DNA from: an uncultured Erysipelotrichaceae bacterium
Lineage (GTDB): Bacteria > Bacillota_I > Bacilli_A > RF39 > UBA660
Length of the DNA stretch: 63,796 nt
Assembly: GCA_902780395.1 (NCBI GenBank)
Contig: CACZFH010000006.1
Span: forward strand, 1 to 63,796
Reading direction: 5' to 3'
This document shows, one piece after another, positions 41,515-61,009 of the stretch (its first letter is position 1; every line of letters begins with the position of its first letter). Under the pieces are notes generated by a model. It saw only the letters and a program-made list of their open reading frames with translations, had not been told where the DNA came from and did not search any database. A program made the position numbers and the translations under genes.

Positions 41515-41535
41515 AACAATCACCAAAAATAAAAA

Positions 41536-41606
41536 GTGCACATGAAAGGAGGATCTAAAGGCTGCTATTTTCCAATCCTGACCTGTTTCAATCACTTTCA
41601 TTGCAC
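41536..41606 (-). ncRNA. ffs: Signal recognition particle RNA (small bacterial type)
   Basis: Minus strand: 5' GTGCAATGAAAG pairs with CTTTCATGTGCAC at the 3' end (one bulge), and helix 8 is clear: CAGGTCAGGATTGGAAAATAGCAGCCT holds the GGAA-type loop and the conserved AGCAGC side (broken into parts here: GTCAGG, GGAAA, AGCAGCC). T5 followed by TATTTTT terminates it. About 71-75 nt; it lacks the Alu domain of the B. subtilis 6S-type scRNA. It binds Ffh for cotranslational targeting. Confidence 0.93.
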
Positions 41607-41612
41607 AAACAT

Positions 41613-41641
41613 ATTCTATATTAAAATAATTAAAAAGTAAA
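41613..41641 (-). promoter_or_regulatory. Promoter of the SRP RNA gene
   Basis: Minus-strand TTTACT (41636-41641), 17-base spacer, TAGAAT (41613-41618), 7 bases before the first paired base of the RNA. Confidence 0.7.
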
Positions 41642-41722
41642 TATAAATACAATAAAATAATAGGATTATTAATTAAAAAATATAAAAATTATTTTTCAGA
41701 AAAGCCATTTACTCTTAACTAA

Positions 41723-41738
41723 TGTTTCACGTGAAACA
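41723..41738. promoter_or_regulatory. parS site 1
   Basis: Perfect TGTTTCACGTGAAACA palindrome. Confidence 0.95.
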
Positions 41739-41772
41739 TATCATCTTTAATTACAGTTTTTTCACTATAATT

Positions 41773-41786
41773 ATTTCCAGGGAAAT
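41773..41786. promoter_or_regulatory. Noc-binding site 1
   Basis: ATTTCCAGGGAAAT; one base off the consensus centre. Confidence 0.8.
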
Positions 41787-41806
41787 ATTTTCTAATTTTA
41801 ATTTAA

Positions 41807-41822
41807 TGTTTCACGTGAAACA
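41807..41822. promoter_or_regulatory. parS site 2
   Basis: Perfect parS palindrome, 84 bp from site 1. Confidence 0.95.
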
Positions 41823-41856
41823 TATTGTCTCTAACTACAGTTTTTTCACTATAATT

Positions 41857-41870
41857 ATTTCCCAGGAAAT
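41857..41870. promoter_or_regulatory. Noc-binding site 2
   Basis: ATTTCCCAGGAAAT; one base off the consensus centre. Confidence 0.8.
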
Positions 41871-41889
41871 ATTTTCTATTCTAATTCAA

Positions 41890-41905
41890 TGTTTCACGTG
41901 AAACA
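41890..41905. promoter_or_regulatory. parS site 3
   Basis: Perfect parS palindrome, 83 bp from site 2. Confidence 0.95.
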
Positions 41906-41939
41906 TATCATTTTCAATTACAACTTATTCACTATAATT

Positions 41940-41953
41940 ATTTCCCTGGAAAT
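41940..41953. promoter_or_regulatory. Noc-binding site 3
   Basis: ATTTCCCTGGAAAT; one base off the consensus centre. Confidence 0.8.
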
Positions 41954-41973
41954 ATTTTCTAATTTTAATTCAA

Positions 41974-41989
41974 TGTTTCACGTGAAACA
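41974..41989. promoter_or_regulatory. parS site 4
   Basis: Perfect parS palindrome, 84 bp from site 3. Confidence 0.95.
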
Positions 41990-42023
41990 TATTATCTCTA
42001 ATTACAGCTTTTTCACTATAATT

Positions 42024-42037
42024 ATTTCCCGGGAAAT
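42024..42037. promoter_or_regulatory. Noc-binding site 4
   Basis: Perfect ATTTCCCGGGAAAT. Confidence 0.88.
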
Positions 42038-42057
42038 ATTTTCTAATTTTAATTCAA

Positions 42058-42073
42058 TGTTTCACGTGAAACA
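42058..42073. promoter_or_regulatory. parS site 5
   Basis: Perfect parS palindrome, 84 bp from site 4. Confidence 0.95.
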
Positions 42074-42107
42074 TATTGTCTCTAATTACAGCTTTTTCAC
42101 TATAATT

Positions 42108-42121
42108 ATTTCCCGGGAAAT
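42108..42121. promoter_or_regulatory. Noc-binding site 5
   Basis: Perfect ATTTCCCGGGAAAT. Confidence 0.88.
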
Positions 42122-42141
42122 ATTTTCTAATTTTAATTCAA

Positions 42142-42157
42142 TGTTTCACGTGAAACA
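42142..42157. promoter_or_regulatory. parS site 6
   Basis: Perfect parS palindrome, 84 bp from site 5. Confidence 0.95.
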
Positions 42158-42191
42158 TATAGTCTCTAATTACAGCATTTTCACTATAATT

Positions 42192-42205
42192 ATTTCCCGG
42201 GAAAT
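42192..42205. promoter_or_regulatory. Noc-binding site 6
   Basis: Perfect ATTTCCCGGGAAAT. Confidence 0.88.
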
Positions 42206-42312
42206 ATTAATTCATTAACAATGATAACTTAAAGTATGTTTTATTAATAAAATAATATCAAGATAAATTAATAAATGTGAAATTAAGAATATTATGAGAA
42301 AAGAAAATATTT

Positions 42313-42321
42313 TTATCCACA
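42313..42321 (+). promoter_or_regulatory. Isolated DnaA box beside the parS/Noc array
   Basis: Perfect TTATCCACA between the array and the gyrA terminator. The rest of 42206-42346 shows only AT-rich sequence and a TATAAT on the plus strand at about 42335 that leads into the terminator. Confidence 0.6.
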
Positions 42322-42400: not shown

Positions 42401-44878
42401 TTAAGATTCAGAAACTGCGTCCTCTGTTACTTTTTCAGAATCATTAAGCTCACTATCATGATCCTCTTCCTTCAAAACCAAAGCTACTGTAGATACCTTT
42501 TGGTCATCCTTTAAATTAATTAATCTTACACCCTGAGTAGCTCTCTTTAAAGTAGATACTTGTTCCAAAGGAAGCTTAATAATAATACCACTATTTGTTA
42601 TTATCATTAAATTCAAAGGAGAATTAGGAGCTAAACATTTAAGTGATGCAATCATACCATTCTTATCAGTTACATTAAGAGCTTTAACACCCTTGCTACC
42701 TCTGTGTGTTAATCGATACTCATCAATAATAGTTTGTTTTCCATAACCATTTTCAGTAACAATTAATACAAGATCACCAGGTTGTACAACCTCTGCACCA
42801 ACAACAACAGCACCATTAAGTTCCATTCCCTTAACTCCAGAACTACTTCTACCCATTGAACGAACTTCTTCTTCATTAAATCTAACAAGTCTACCATTAC
42901 TTGCTCCAATAACAATTTCATTTTTTCCACAAGTGCTGTTAACACTTATAAGTTCATCATTATCCTTCAAAACAATAGCAATTTTACCACCTTTTCGAAT
43001 ATTATCAAATTCCTCAATAGGTGTTCTTTTAACAATACCATTTTTTGTAGCAAACATTAAATATTTTGTATCTTCATCATTTTGACCAATACTAACTATC
43101 GAACTAATGTTCTCGTCCTTTTCTAAAGGTAATAAATTAATAACAGGTAAGCCTTTTGATTGTCTAGAAAATTCAGGAACCTCATAACCTTTCATTCTAT
43201 AAACTCTACCTCGATTTGAGAAGAATAAAATATAATCATGAGTACTCATAGAAATTAAATGTTCTACAAAATCCTCTTCATTTGTAGCCATTCCTTTAAT
43301 ACCTACACCACCCCTATTTTGAGTTTTATAAGTATCTGTTCTTAATCGCTTAATATAACCATTTCTAGTTAAATTGATAATAACATCTTCCTCTGGTATC
43401 AAAGATTCATCTTCAATGTATTCAATAGCTGTCATATCAATATTAGTACGTCTTTCATCACCATATTTTTGTTTAATTTCAAGAAGTTCATTTTTAATTA
43501 CCTCTAATACCTTCTCATCACTAGCTAAAATTGCCTTTAATTCAGTTATTGTATTTAATAAATCACTTAATTCATTTTCTATTTTTTCTCTCTCTAATCC
43601 GGTTAAACGGCGTAATCTCATTTCAAGAATATTAGTTGCTTGAATCTCAGTTAACTTAAAATTACTCATCAAACCAGCTTTAGCATCATCATCAGATTGA
43701 GATCCACGAATTAATTTAATAACAGCATCAATGTGATCAAGAGCTATTTTTAAACCTTCTAAAATGTGAACTCTTTTTTCAGCAACATCCAAATCAAATC
43801 TAGTCCTACGTATTATTACTTCCTTTTGATAATCAATATACTTAGATATAATTTCCTTTAATCCTAATGTTTTAGGAACGCCTTGATCTAGCATCAAGAA
43901 AATAATTCCATAAGTAGTTTGAAATTGAGTATGCTTATATAATTTATTTAAAACAACTTGTGCATTAGCATCCCTTTTTAAAGTAATTGTAATCTTAATT
44001 CCATCTTTTAAATCAGAATGATAATCAGCAATTCCATCAATTACTTTATTATGAACTAATTCAGCTACTTTATTTTTTAATTCCAAAGTATTAACACCAT
44101 AAGGAACCTCATCAATAATAATTAATTGTTTGCCATTTTCCTCTTCAATAGTAGCCTTACTACGAACAGTAATAGAACCCCGACCAGTTTCATAAGCCTT
44201 ACGAATTCCACTATTTCCTAAAATAATAGCACCCGTTGGAAAATCAGGACCTTTTATATACTGCATTAACTCATCTAACTCAATATCAGGTTTATCAATG
44301 TAAGCAACACAACCATCAATAACTTCACCTAAATTATGAGGTGGAATATTAGTAGCCATACCAACAGCAATACCAGTAGTTCCATTAACTAATATATTAG
44401 GAAAACGAGAAGGTAAAACTTCAGGTTCCCTCTCACTCTCATCAAAATTAGGAATAAAATTAACAGTATCTTTATTAATATTTCTTAATAATTCCAAAGA
44501 GATTTTTGATAATCTTGACTCAGTATAACGCATAGCAGCAGCACCATAACCTTCAATATTACCAAAATTACCATGTCCATCTACTAACATATATCGATAA
44601 GAGAAATCTTGTGCCATTCTTACCATAGCTTCATAAATAGAAGAATCACCATGAGGATGATATTTACCCATAACATCTCCAACAATTCTTGCACTCTTTT
44701 TATGAGGTTTATCAGGAGTATAACCAGATTCATACATAGAATATAAAATTCTTCTATGAACAGGCTTTAAACCATCTCTTAAATCAGGTAATGCCCTAGC
44801 TACAATAACACTCATAGAATACTCTAAAAATGAATCTTGTACTTCTTTAACAATATTATTTTTTTCTAATCTATCCAT
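42401..44878 (-). CDS. gyrA: DNA gyrase subunit A
   Basis: 825 aa. N-terminal [28 protein letters not shown], active-site [11 protein letters not shown] (Tyr), and a C-terminal beta-pinwheel with GyrA box [10 protein letters not shown]. The GyrA box favours gyrase over topoisomerase IV. It ends in an acidic tail. GGAGGGTTTATT precedes the second of two in-frame ATG/TTG codons. It follows gyrB by 12 bases. Confidence 0.97.
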
Positions 44879-44890
44879 CAATAAACCCTC

Positions 44891-51326: not shown

Positions 51327-51642
51327 GATTCATTAATTACCATTTATTCTACACGAGAATAATTAAAAAAGAAACCACTTTTTTTATAATTTTTTTTTAT
51401 AAATAAAAGATATAATTATCCACAAAATATTCTACATAAAAAGTGTTGAAAAAAAAAGAAATATTACAAAAAAATAATTATTAACAGATAATCCACCGTA
51501 TTATCCACAGTTAAAATTATCGTAATATAACCAAAATAATAAGTTTTCCACATTTTCCACAGATTTTTATAAACAGAATAGGAAAAAGTTTTCAACAAAC
51601 CTGTTGAAAATGTGAATAATTAATTTAAAAAAGAAGTTTTCA
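51327..51642. other. oriC: Chromosomal replication origin region (oriC)
   Basis: AT-rich gap between divergent dnaA and rpmH. Perfect DnaA boxes TTATCCACA at 51416-51424 and 51501-51509; TTTTCCACA abutting twice at 51544-51552 and 51553-51561; near boxes TAATCCACC (51489-51497), TTTTCAACA (51589-51597) and its inverse (51602-51610 and 51444-51452). An A/T-only stretch at about 51371-51415 is a candidate unwinding element. Transcription polarity of the whole window switches here. Confidence 0.92.
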
Positions 51643-51672
51643 TTGACAAATCAACAATCTTATTATTATAAT
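51643..51672 (+). promoter_or_regulatory. Promoter of rpmH-rnpA-yidC-khpB
   Basis: TTGACA (51643-51648), 18-base spacer, TATAAT (51667-51672), then a GGAGGTGG ribosome site. Confidence 0.8.
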
Positions 51673-51702
51673 AATGTAGATTTATGTCTGGAGGTGGAAC
51701 AA

Positions 51703-51825
51703 GTGAAAAGAACATATCAACCTAATAATAAGAAGAAAGCAAAAAGATTAGGATTTTTTGCACGCAAAAAAACAAATGTATTAAATCGCCGTCGTCGTAA
51801 AGGACGTAAAAGTCTTTGTAAATAA
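51703..51825 (+). CDS. rpmH: Large ribosomal subunit protein bL34
   Basis: 40 aa with a GTG start (VKRTYQPNNKKKAKRLGF) 7 bases after GGAGGTGG. The usual bL34 is 44 aa; the loop between GF and the RRRRKGRK tail is about four residues shorter (FARKKTNVLN). First gene of the rightward operon and adjacent to the origin, as in nearly all bacteria. Confidence 0.95.
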   Translation: MKRTYQPNNKKKAKRLGFFARKKTNVLNRRRRKGRKSLCK

Positions 51826-51828
51826 AAT

Positions 51829-51852
51829 ACCGCTGCTAAACAGTGGTTTTTT
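51829..51852 (+). terminator. Hairpin (partial terminator) between rpmH and rnpA
   Basis: Stem ACCGCTG/CAGTGGT (one G-U), loop CTAAA, then T6. Since rnpA has no separate promoter visible, it may be leaky and set a high L34 to RnpA ratio. Confidence 0.7.
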
Positions 51853-51871
51853 ACTCTAAAGGAATGGTTAT

Positions 51872-57895: not shown

Positions 57896-59236
57896 ATGTA
57901 TCCAGATGATAAAGATGAAGTAGTACAATTATACCTAGATGATATTATTCCAAATAGATTTCAACCACGTGAAGTATTTGATGAAAAAGCGCTAAAAGAA
58001 CTAGCTGTATCTATCAAAGAACATGGAGTTATACAACCAATCATTGTTAGAAATGTAAATGGAAAATATGAAATTATCGCAGGAGAAAGAAGATATAAAG
58101 CATCTGCCTTAGCAGGTTTAACGAAAATCCCAGCTATTATCAGAGATTTAGATGATAAAGAAAGTTCCAAAGTAGCATTATTAGAAAATTTGCAGAGAAA
58201 GAACTTAAATCCTATAGAAGAAGCTAGAACATATCAAAAAATATTAGAAATAGACGAAATGACACAAGAAGAATTAGCAAAAACAATGGGCAAAAGTCAA
58301 TCTGCTGTTGCTAATAAAATCCGTCTATTATCTTTACCTGAAGAGATTCAAGATGCCCTATTAAAAGAAGAAATATCAGAAAGACATGCAAGAACATTAT
58401 TGAATTTAACTGATATAGAAGAACAAAAAACTATGTTAAAGAAGGTAATTGATAATAAGATGAGTGTTAGAGCTCTAGAAGATGAAATCAAAGAAATGCA
58501 TCCAAAAGAACCAAAAACACAAGAAAATGACATAGCGTCAATAGATTTTGTTAATAGTAATCCATTAATGCCAACAGCTGAATTACCAAAAGACACATCT
58601 AACTTTGGAAAAGTAACATTGGCACCTCCAACTGAAGGAGAAGCAGGAAATGAAAATGAATTAAATAAGACTCATAAGTTCATTAATTTTGGAGAAATTG
58701 GCAAAGAAGATGATGATGAGGATGAAGGAGGTAATTCAATTGAGTTACCAACTGCAATAACACCAGTGGATGTTAATAAAATAAAAGAAGAAGCAACAGA
58801 TATTAAGCCTGAATCATCAGAAGAAGGAGATTTAGATAGTTTATTAAACATAGGTAACCCAATCTCACCCAAACCATCTAATCAATTTATAACTCCAGCT
58901 GAAAAAATCGTAAAAACTGATTCAGAAATAGAAGAAAAAGAAGCTAACTCTGATTATTTCAAAATACCAGAATTTGATTCTGAACCTGAGCCAGTATCAA
59001 CAATTGATTCTACGGATAACAACATGTTCTTAAAACCAACATCTACCCCAGAAGTAAATAAAGAAGAACCAATTGAAACAACTTCTAATTATACAATTGA
59101 ACAAGCAACAGATAAAATTAGAAAACTAGTAACAGATTTAAAAGAACATGGAATAATAATAAATACAGATGAGATGAATTTTGAAAAATCTTATCAAATA
59201 ATTATTAAGATAGATAAAACAGAAGCAGAAAAGTAG
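57896..59236 (+). CDS. noc: Nucleoid occlusion protein Noc (ParB-type CTPase) with long acidic linker
   Basis: 446 aa (B. subtilis Noc 283). ParB/CTPase core: GERRYKA (64-70) and ENLQRKNLNPIEEA (97-110). HTH: GKSQS (132-136), ANK (139-141) and SERHAR (161-166), the Gln/Lys/Arg residues linked to Noc-site rather than parS recognition. The C-terminal dimer domain (about 395-446) resembles Noc. The order rsmG-noc-parA-parB supports the name. Two oddities: translation starts at MYPDDKDEVV, so the amphipathic membrane-binding N-terminal helix of Bacillus Noc is absent; and about 190 acidic, disordered residues (205-394) separate the HTH from the dimer domain. GTGAGGGG precedes ATG. Confidence 0.93.
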   Translation: MYPDDKDEVVQLYLDDIIPNRFQPREVFDEKALKELAVSIKEHGVIQPIIVRNVNGKYEIIAGERRYKASALAGLTKIPAIIRDLDDKESSKVALLENLQRKNLNPIEEARTYQKILEIDEMTQEELAKTMGKSQSAVANKIRLLSLPEEIQDALLKEEISERHARTLLNLTDIEEQKTMLKKVIDNKMSVRALEDEIKEMHPKEPKTQENDIASIDFVNSNPLMPTAELPKDTSNFGKVTLAPPTEGEAGNENELNKTHKFINFGEIGKEDDDEDEGGNSIELPTAITPVDVNKIKEEATDIKPESSEEGDLDSLLNIGNPISPKPSNQFITPAEKIVKTDSEIEEKEANSDYFKIPEFDSEPEPVSTIDSTDNNMFLKPTSTPEVNKEEPIETTSNYTIEQATDKIRKLVTDLKEHGIIINTDEMNFEKSYQIIIKIDKTEAEK

Positions 59237-59322: not shown

Positions 59323-60111
59323 ATGGGAAAGGCAATTTCATTAGTAAATCAAAAAGGTGGAGTAGGAAAAACAACAAGTAGTATTAATCTTTCAGCATCA
59401 TTAGCAGTATTAGGTAAAAAAGTATTACTAATTGATCTTGATCCACAAGGAAATACCACAACTGGAGTAGGTATTAACAAGGGAGAAATAGAAAGAAGTA
59501 TTTATGATGTTTTAATTGGAGAATGCAAAATAACAGAAGCAATTATTAAAACAAGATATAAAAATTTATATGTTATTCCAGCCACAATTAATTTAGCAGG
59601 ATTAGAGTATGAATTAATTGAAAAAAGTAATAGTGATGCTAACTTTAAAAAAGGAGAACAACTAAAAATAAGCTTAATGGATATAAAAGATAGTTTTGAT
59701 TTTATTATTCTAGATTGTCCACCATCCCTATCTCTAATAACAACCAATGCTCTAGCTGCATCAAATTCAGTAATAATCCCTGTTCAATGTGAGTTTTTTG
59801 CTCTAGAAGGAATTACCCAATTACTAAAAACAATTATGATGTCTCAAAAAACATTAAATCCTACATTAGATATTGAAGGAGTATTACTTACAATGTTGGA
59901 TTCTAGAACGAATCTAGGTTTTGAAGTAGTTGAAGATATTAGAAAATTCTTTAAAGAAAAAGTATATAACACGATTATTCCAAGATTGGTAAGATTGACA
60001 GAGGCTCCATCACACGGAGAACCAATCATAGCTTATGATCCAAAAAGTAGAGGTTCAGAAGCTTATCTAAATCTAGCAAAGGAAGTGATTGAAAGAAATG
60101 GAAAACAATAA
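59323..60111 (+). CDS. parA: Chromosome partitioning ATPase ParA/Soj
   Basis: 262 aa. Deviant Walker A KGGVGKTTSSINLSASLA, A' motif LLIDLDPQGNTTTG, Walker B FDFIILDCPPSLSLIT. It binds DNA nonspecifically as ATP dimers and interacts with ParB; in B. subtilis it also controls DnaA. A weak promoter (TTTAAA-17-TACAAT) lies in the 85-base gap after noc. ATG follows GGGTGATTAG. Confidence 0.97.
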   Translation: MGKAISLVNQKGGVGKTTSSINLSASLAVLGKKVLLIDLDPQGNTTTGVGINKGEIERSIYDVLIGECKITEAIIKTRYKNLYVIPATINLAGLEYELIEKSNSDANFKKGEQLKISLMDIKDSFDFIILDCPPSLSLITTNALAASNSVIIPVQCEFFALEGITQLLKTIMMSQKTLNPTLDIEGVLLTMLDSRTNLGFEVVEDIRKFFKEKVYNTIIPRLVRLTEAPSHGEPIIAYDPKSRGSEAYLNLAKEVIERNGKQ

Positions 60112-61009
60112 TACAACAGAATCAGGAATTCCAAAGAGAAGAGCTTTAGGAAGAGGGTTAGAAGAATTATTTAATAGTGAAGTATTGGATTACAATACAG
60201 TAGAAGAAAAAATAGTTAGTAATTCATCTAAAGATGAAATAACAATGGTAAAAATAAAAGACCTAAGAAGTAACCCATATCAGCCAAGAAAGAATTTTGA
60301 TCAACAAGCTTTAGAGGAACTAGCAAGCTCCATTAAAGAACATGGAGTATTCCAACCAATTATTGTAAAAAAATCAATTAAAGGCTATGAAATAATAGCC
60401 GGAGAAAGAAGAGTTAAAGCTTCAGAATTAGCAGGTTTAGAAGAAGTGCCAGCTATTATTAGAGATTTTAATGATACTCAAATGATGGAAATAGCATTGC
60501 TAGAAAATCTTCAAAGAGAAAACTTAAGTGCTATTGAAGAAGCAACAGCATATAAGAAATTACAAGAAACACTTTCTTTAACTCAAGAAGAATTAGCTAA
60601 AAGATTAGGAAAAAGTAGAAGTCATATAACAAATATGTTAGGATTATTAACTCTTCCAGAAGATATTCAAAATGAAGTAAACAATAAATTAATATCTATG
60701 GGACATGCTAGAGTTCTAAGCAAATTAGAAAATATAAATCAACAAGAAGAATTAGCTAAAAAAATAATAGAAGAAGGAATAAGTGTTAGAAAACTCGAAG
60801 AAATAAGTCAAGAAAATGATGTAGTAAAAACAAATCCTCAAAAATCTAAAATAAAGGTTCAAAATGAGTATAGTTATTTACAAGAAGAATTAAGTGAAAA
60901 ACTAGGCACAAAAGTAACTATAAAAAAGAATAAAATTGAAATAAGCTTTGTAAATGAAAATGATTTAAATCGCTTATTAGAATATATGAATATAGAGGTA
61001 GGAAAATAA
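60098..61009 (+). CDS. parB: Chromosome partitioning protein ParB/Spo0J
   Basis: About 303 aa. N-terminal ParA-stimulating segment (KRRALGRGLEELF), CTPase motifs GERRVKA and ENLQRENLSAIEEA, HTH with GKSRS and SMGHAR (Arg and Gly at the parS-specificity positions), C-terminal dimer domain. It overlaps parA by 14 bases; ATG (MENNNTTES) is chosen, though a TTG 9 bases upstream is also possible. The matching parS sites are the six in the array at 41.7-42.2 kb. Confidence 0.96.
   Translation: MENNNTTESGIPKRRALGRGLEELFNSEVLDYNTVEEKIVSNSSKDEITMVKIKDLRSNPYQPRKNFDQQALEELASSIKEHGVFQPIIVKKSIKGYEIIAGERRVKASELAGLEEVPAIIRDFNDTQMMEIALLENLQRENLSAIEEATAYKKLQETLSLTQEELAKRLGKSRSHITNMLGLLTLPEDIQNEVNNKLISMGHARVLSKLENINQQEELAKKIIEEGISVRKLEEISQENDVVKTNPQKSKIKVQNEYSYLQEELSEKLGTKVTIKKNKIEISFVNENDLNRLLEYMNIEVGK

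Follow-up and report, generated by a model that had tools for sequence, protein, structure and literature searches.

The window analyzed here, a stretch of 63,796 nucleotides on contig C6 of a metagenome-assembled genome, carries an 84-bp tandem repeat at positions 41721-42208, for which Tandem Repeats Finder gave a period of 84, 5.8 copies and 92% matches. The repeat is bordered on its origin side by gyrA (42401-44881, minus strand), which serves as the syntenic anchor, and on its other side by the small SRP RNA gene ffs (41523-41617, minus strand), followed by tadA and dnaX. Each of its approximately six copies pairs a parS with a Noc-binding site (NBS), and motif searches bore out the original prediction that six perfect parS (TGTTTCACGTGAAACA) alternate strictly with six NBS of the ATTTCCCGGGAAAT type beside gyrA. 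The parS copies, all exact, lie at 41723-41738, 41807-41822, 41890-41905, 41974-41989, 42058-42073 and 42142-42157 (repeat and sites are listed without strand). The first three NBS (41773-41786, ATTTCCAGGGAAAT; 41857-41870, ATTTCCCAGGAAAT; 41940-41953, ATTTCCCTGGAAAT) each carry a single mismatch in the central two bases, and the last three (42024-42037, 42108-42121 and 42192-42205) are exact. The order parS-NBS-parS-NBS is kept throughout, with 49 bp from the centre of a parS to that of the following NBS and 34 or 35 bp from there to the next parS. Across the window, eight parS-like matches with up to three mismatches were counted, against 0.35 expected by chance.

Between copies of the array the parS are invariant, the changes in NBS are confined to their centre and the spacers are more variable. 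The comparison of site with spacer variation returned p=0.02 for the part common to the six copies and p=0.06 for the five full copies, which is modest evidence that parS and NBS change more slowly than the spacers. Positions 1 and 6, by which an NBS is told apart from a parS (PMC7383237), are unchanged in all six NBS. Since the copies are not identical and the flanks are unique, the array is not a pure assembly artefact, and a repeat that collapsed or was falsely expanded during metagenome assembly, a concern attached to the original prediction, is made very improbable by independently assembled relatives that carry arrays at the same locus. Several relatives' contigs do end inside such arrays, the one point in favor of an artefact, so that the copy number given here could be an underestimate. 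Two other ways of reading the repeat were tried and rejected. As a promoter or operator repeat, it held 13 promoter-like sites compared with 9.9 +/- 2.8 in shuffles, and no repeat-wide promoter; a 109-aa open reading frame with MFHVKH repeats (41889-42218, plus strand) is a by-product of translating the 84-bp repeat and not a coding repeat, albeit one liable to be taken for a protein by gene callers.

The predicted cognates of both site types, a parS-type ParB and an NBS-type Noc, are encoded in the same window in the usual order rsmG-noc-soj-spo0J, with the Noc and ParB genes 15.7-18 kb from the array. The parB/spo0J gene (60089-61009, plus strand) specifies a protein of 306 aa that best matches Spo0J (6sdk, E 6e-66) and has an N-terminal RRALGRGL of the ParA-stimulating type; parA/soj lies at 59323-60111 (plus strand). 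The noc-like gene (57896-59236, plus strand) specifies a protein of 446 aa with ParB_N and HTH_ParB domains and a long acidic disordered linker. By sequence, this protein best matches solved Noc structures (7nfu, 5e-63, versus 8e-51 for the Spo0J entry 1vz0), and it scores 290.9 bits against NCBIfam TIGR04285, below the curated cut-off of 315. Four specificity positions were aligned using what we take to be the B. subtilis Noc sequence, the N-terminal and DNA-binding parts of which agree with the 7ol9 alignment; at these positions the window ParB has R-M-T-G (R173, G201), the parS type, and the window Noc has Q-K-S-R. Q173 and R201, plus a lysine at either 179 or 184, are reported to suffice for NBS specificity (PMC7383237), and the Q/K/R specificity residues are retained in 66 of 70 Noc proteins of the family. 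The CTP-pocket motifs GERR and ENxQR are likewise invariant at the level of sequence in 40 family Noc (alignment A1).

The oriC region was placed in the dnaA-rnpA gap (51330-51870, no strand assigned) from three DnaA boxes (51416, 51501 and 51611) and a GC-skew switch, and the array lies approximately 9 kb from it on the gyrA side. A pattern search for dispersed equivalents of the sites was extended to the whole genome (1.83 Mb in 73 contigs, 96% complete). The array was the only place where NBS with no more than one mismatch occurred, and parS-like sites with up to two mismatches occurred outside it as three singles (C15:24197, C2:24103 and C8:50702). The first of these (L007 in this genome, G000) departs from parS at one base and lies in a prophage, next to ERF and SSB-like genes that were named from their sequences; the other two are weaker matches.

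Related genomes, in which the original prediction had proposed to look for the repeat, also carry mixed clusters at the gyrA-tadA locus, and there the clusters extend into tadA-dnaX. A composite pattern (an exact parS, 10-40 bp and TTTCCNNGGAAA) was present in 45 of 386 family genomes and in 34 of 150 genera, and none of the family genomes had the reversed pattern. Among 84,980 species scanned, more than 112 stretches with the composite pattern were recovered, nearly all from uncultured Bacilli-type metagenome-assembled genomes; the records of relatives are titled uncultured Bacilli, Tenericutes, Mollicutes or Erysipelotrichaceae and include Candidatus Onthousia and Candidatus Scybalousia, and an RF39-like order is a tentative placement. 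When relatives' stretches were annotated with the window proteins, almost all proved to be gyrA-tadA or tadA-dnaX intervals, and mixtures of parS and NBS were found at approximately 140 loci in the gyrA-tadA-dnaX interval. Because a search for pairs is biased toward finding them, stretches of up to 10 kb after gyrA were also taken from 80 family genomes picked independently of pairing, some of whose contigs end just past gyrA. These regions, about 0.66% of the DNA, carry 137 of the 144 exact parS and 115 of the 161 exact NBS. In other families of the class the exact NBS 14-mer is rare (9/253). Family genomes mostly have 1-8 NBS each, and many members have only one or two, some of them several kb away from the parS cluster, so that the clade as a whole does not depend on strict pairing; two genomes of the same genus (G157 and G330) are without close parS-NBS pairing. 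Extra NBS, separated from the parS cluster by a few kb, recur at the same positions in or beside dnaX, ybaB and recR (L044, L047, L098, L027 and L028). Among 317 distinct exact NBS from relatives, the site is embedded in an extended palindrome, AAATTATTTCCCGGGAAATAATTT, that varies mostly in its central two bases.

Strictly alternating arrays of at least five sites were found at at least 19 loci once duplicates had been removed, with units of approximately 62 to 215 bp; the longest (L052) has nine 75-bp units, another (L100) has seven, and the array of the window is third. Similarity between the spacers of arrays from different genera is weak (z mostly 1-3) and comes partly from shared NBS flanks. 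Since alternating arrays with unlike unit lengths and spacers occur in many genera, the layout seems to have arisen repeatedly, and we read the recurrent arrays as repeated amplification of local parS-NBS units. Tandem arrays of parS alone, with units of 28, 37 or 55 bp and up to approximately 19 copies, occupy the same gyrA-side locus in other genera (L254, L264, L270, L216 and L218).

These arrays bear on the suggestion that the locus is essentially a parS cluster, in which NBS are bystanders brought there by a general origin bias and alternation reflects the tandem duplication of one chance unit. Duplicating a single unit would produce alternation automatically, parS-only arrays are common in the family (for example, 37 bp x19 in G180 and 55 bp x10 in G135), and enrichment of NBS toward the origin has also been described for S. 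aureus and B. subtilis (PMC5540599). Against this, chance duplication fits poorly with the recurrence of alternating arrays with other units and spacers in so many genera, and in the 10-kb regions after gyrA 54 of 130 NBS lay within 100 bp of a parS-like site, six times more than under random shifts in the same 10 kb (8.8, with a maximum of 24). The pattern of variation among the six copies of the window, with NBS altered only centrally and parS not at all, also speaks against bystander sites, and we consider this explanation unlikely.

Covariation between protein and site points in the same direction as the specificity residues. Exact NBS were absent from five of seven genomes without a Noc-grade match compared with 14 of 119 genomes with one (126 genomes; p=0.0008), Noc absence being taken from E-values in metagenome-assembled genomes that may have gaps. 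Several of those examined among the 14 Noc-positive genomes without an exact NBS have sites with one mismatch. Both Noc proteins changed at position 173 (VKTR and EKSR) come from genomes without exact NBS (p=0.038, in a comparison for which NBS-free genomes had been deliberately over-sampled). The two lines of covariation, with Noc absence and with residue 173, support the NBS as the predicted target of the Noc of this clade.

B. subtilis Noc cannot bind the membrane or inhibit division without its 10-residue N-terminal amphipathic helix (PMC4331003, PMC8429893). Residues 4-5 of the window Noc align with residues 24-25 of solved Noc chains, and compared with B. subtilis Noc the start of the protein is set back by approximately 20 residues. 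In 70 family Noc, the sequence ahead of the NRFQPR box can reach a median of 17 residues at most, versus 40 in B. subtilis, and N-terminal alignment found the membrane helix in none of the 70. The family Noc linker is disordered, acidic and rich in N, E and P, with a median of 182 aa, and inspection by eye revealed no evident amphipathic segment in it. The linker changes fast, and three short conserved motifs within it, D.[IV]D.I..xA.DI, KF[IF]N[FY] and DLD.LL (window 57896-59236; loci L163-L191 and L272-L311), were picked after the linkers had been inspected and occur in 16, 28 and 27 of 69 linkers, respectively, against shuffle maxima of 1, 2 and 6; they are possible partner-binding motifs. 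In sister families of the class (L312, G432; L313, G411; L327, G608) the Noc N-terminus varies from helix-like (MFNLF...) through short (MALFNRK...) to nearly absent, a variation that should be useful for dating the gain or loss of membrane targeting.

With the membrane helix missing, "Noc" should not be read here as denoting canonical membrane nucleoid occlusion. Together with the concentration of NBS at the gyrA-side locus, its absence makes a membrane-based, chromosome-wide occlusion role unlikely, and the Noc of this clade is probably without one. A more restricted form of canonical occlusion could still be envisaged, in which Noc is tethered to the membrane through another segment and the block on division is limited to the vicinity of the origin. 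In its favor are the identity of the protein and its NBS specificity, and the C-terminal domain of MinC was not found in the 96%-complete assembly by a search that detects B. subtilis MinC, so that the cell may need another way of controlling division. Spo0J and Noc of B. subtilis, moreover, jointly keep Z rings from forming early at midcell (PMC6852036). However, the helix is missing throughout the family sample, the linker offers no obvious substitute, and B. subtilis works with approximately 70 NBS dispersed over most of the chromosome (PMC4331003); origin-restricted membrane occlusion is therefore quite unlikely.

A role in replication has also to be weighed, namely that Noc here mainly controls replication initiation, as in S. 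aureus, with the array acting as an origin-proximal regulatory reservoir. The 9 kb separating the array from oriC would suit such a role, and S. aureus Noc restrains initiation (PMC5540599). In the fetched regions of relatives, DnaA boxes are approximately five-fold denser near parS/NBS sites than elsewhere, half of them coming from two loci, but the enrichment is patchy and could stem from intergenic sequence as such, and nothing tied the array directly to DnaA. In S. aureus, moreover, the effect was judged not to rest on DNA binding by itself (PMC5540599), and a primarily replicative function appears rather unlikely. A perfect DnaA box (TTATCCACA) is present at 42313-42321, 108 bp past the array of the window, and at L208 DnaA boxes lie inside the repeat units. 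Because Spo0J and Noc hold back Z rings in B. subtilis and Noc restrains initiation in S. aureus, division and replication outputs are both plausible for this clade.

Taken together, the confined sites, the syntenic and recurrent locus, the specificity residues and the missing helix make it likely that the array is an origin-proximal centromere on which two related CTP-dependent clamps load next to each other, a reading that predicts binding, co-loading, spreading and function. ParB (60089-61009) would nucleate on the six parS, close as a clamp and spread, engaging ParA and presumably SMC, with segregation as its task. The Noc paralogue (57896-59236) would nucleate on the six interleaved NBS, take up CTP and close, and the two clamps would then slide over common DNA flanking the origin. 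Noc would probably mark the origin domain, where its linker motifs could recruit or inhibit a division or replication partner. The compact two-clamp centromere of the original prediction is partly supported by the two nearby cognates with the expected residues, by NBS-type sites restricted to the array, by the position on the gyrA side of oriC and by the recurrence of the locus; the Noc itself departs from expectation in having no membrane-targeting helix. More tentatively, the centromere of the whole clade may be a two-clamp locus, in which a membrane-free Noc, whether it predates the gain of the helix or has lost it secondarily, sits beside ParB as second clamp and origin marker, and which repeatedly turns over into new alternating arrays. 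Such a system would make testable how a Noc clamp that sits only at the origin acts, whether two orthogonal CTP clamps interfere on one DNA and how Noc evolved from ParB, and the alternating arrays offer, as they stand, short DNA substrates on which two such clamps can be studied.

Tandem sites for ParB-family proteins form the partition locus of some plasmids, as in sopC of F and parS of pSM19035. Those centromeres load one protein, whereas in the chromosomal array of the window the predicted sites of two paralogous clamps alternate. Several parS near oriC, as in the window, are known from Pseudomonas, Streptomyces and Listeria (PMC7333895). To our knowledge, these clusters have no interleaved second clamp site and no tandem units in the gyrA-tadA-dnaX interval. 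S. aureus Noc, which is linked to replication control, is like that of the window in having origin-biased NBS with an identical core consensus, but 41 NBS loci are spread over the origin half of its chromosome compared with one array here, and the part of the report that we could consult makes no mention of a parS-NBS array (PMC5540599). A search confined to the open-access literature turned up no description of parS/NBS arrays in alternating or tandem form, which agrees with the array having been put forward as of an undescribed kind; the array is not unique, though, being a tandem version of the mixed locus seen across the clade, which reaches greater lengths in L052 and L100. The parts are known, and what appears to be new is the fused alternating locus, its fixed position across the clade and the membrane-free Noc confined there. 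The closest parallel is the ParABS (Spo0J-Soj-parS) and Noc-NBS systems of B. subtilis, with which the window shares the proteins, the two 16-bp palindromes, the rsmG-noc-soj-spo0J order near oriC and the logic of specificity. In B. subtilis the parS sites are separate and scattered, NBS are chromosome-wide and Noc has an N-terminal membrane helix, whereas in the genome studied here both site types are fused in one 488-bp array, NBS occur nowhere else and the helix is lacking. Across the clade, parS and NBS appear united at one locus, with a Noc freed from the membrane.
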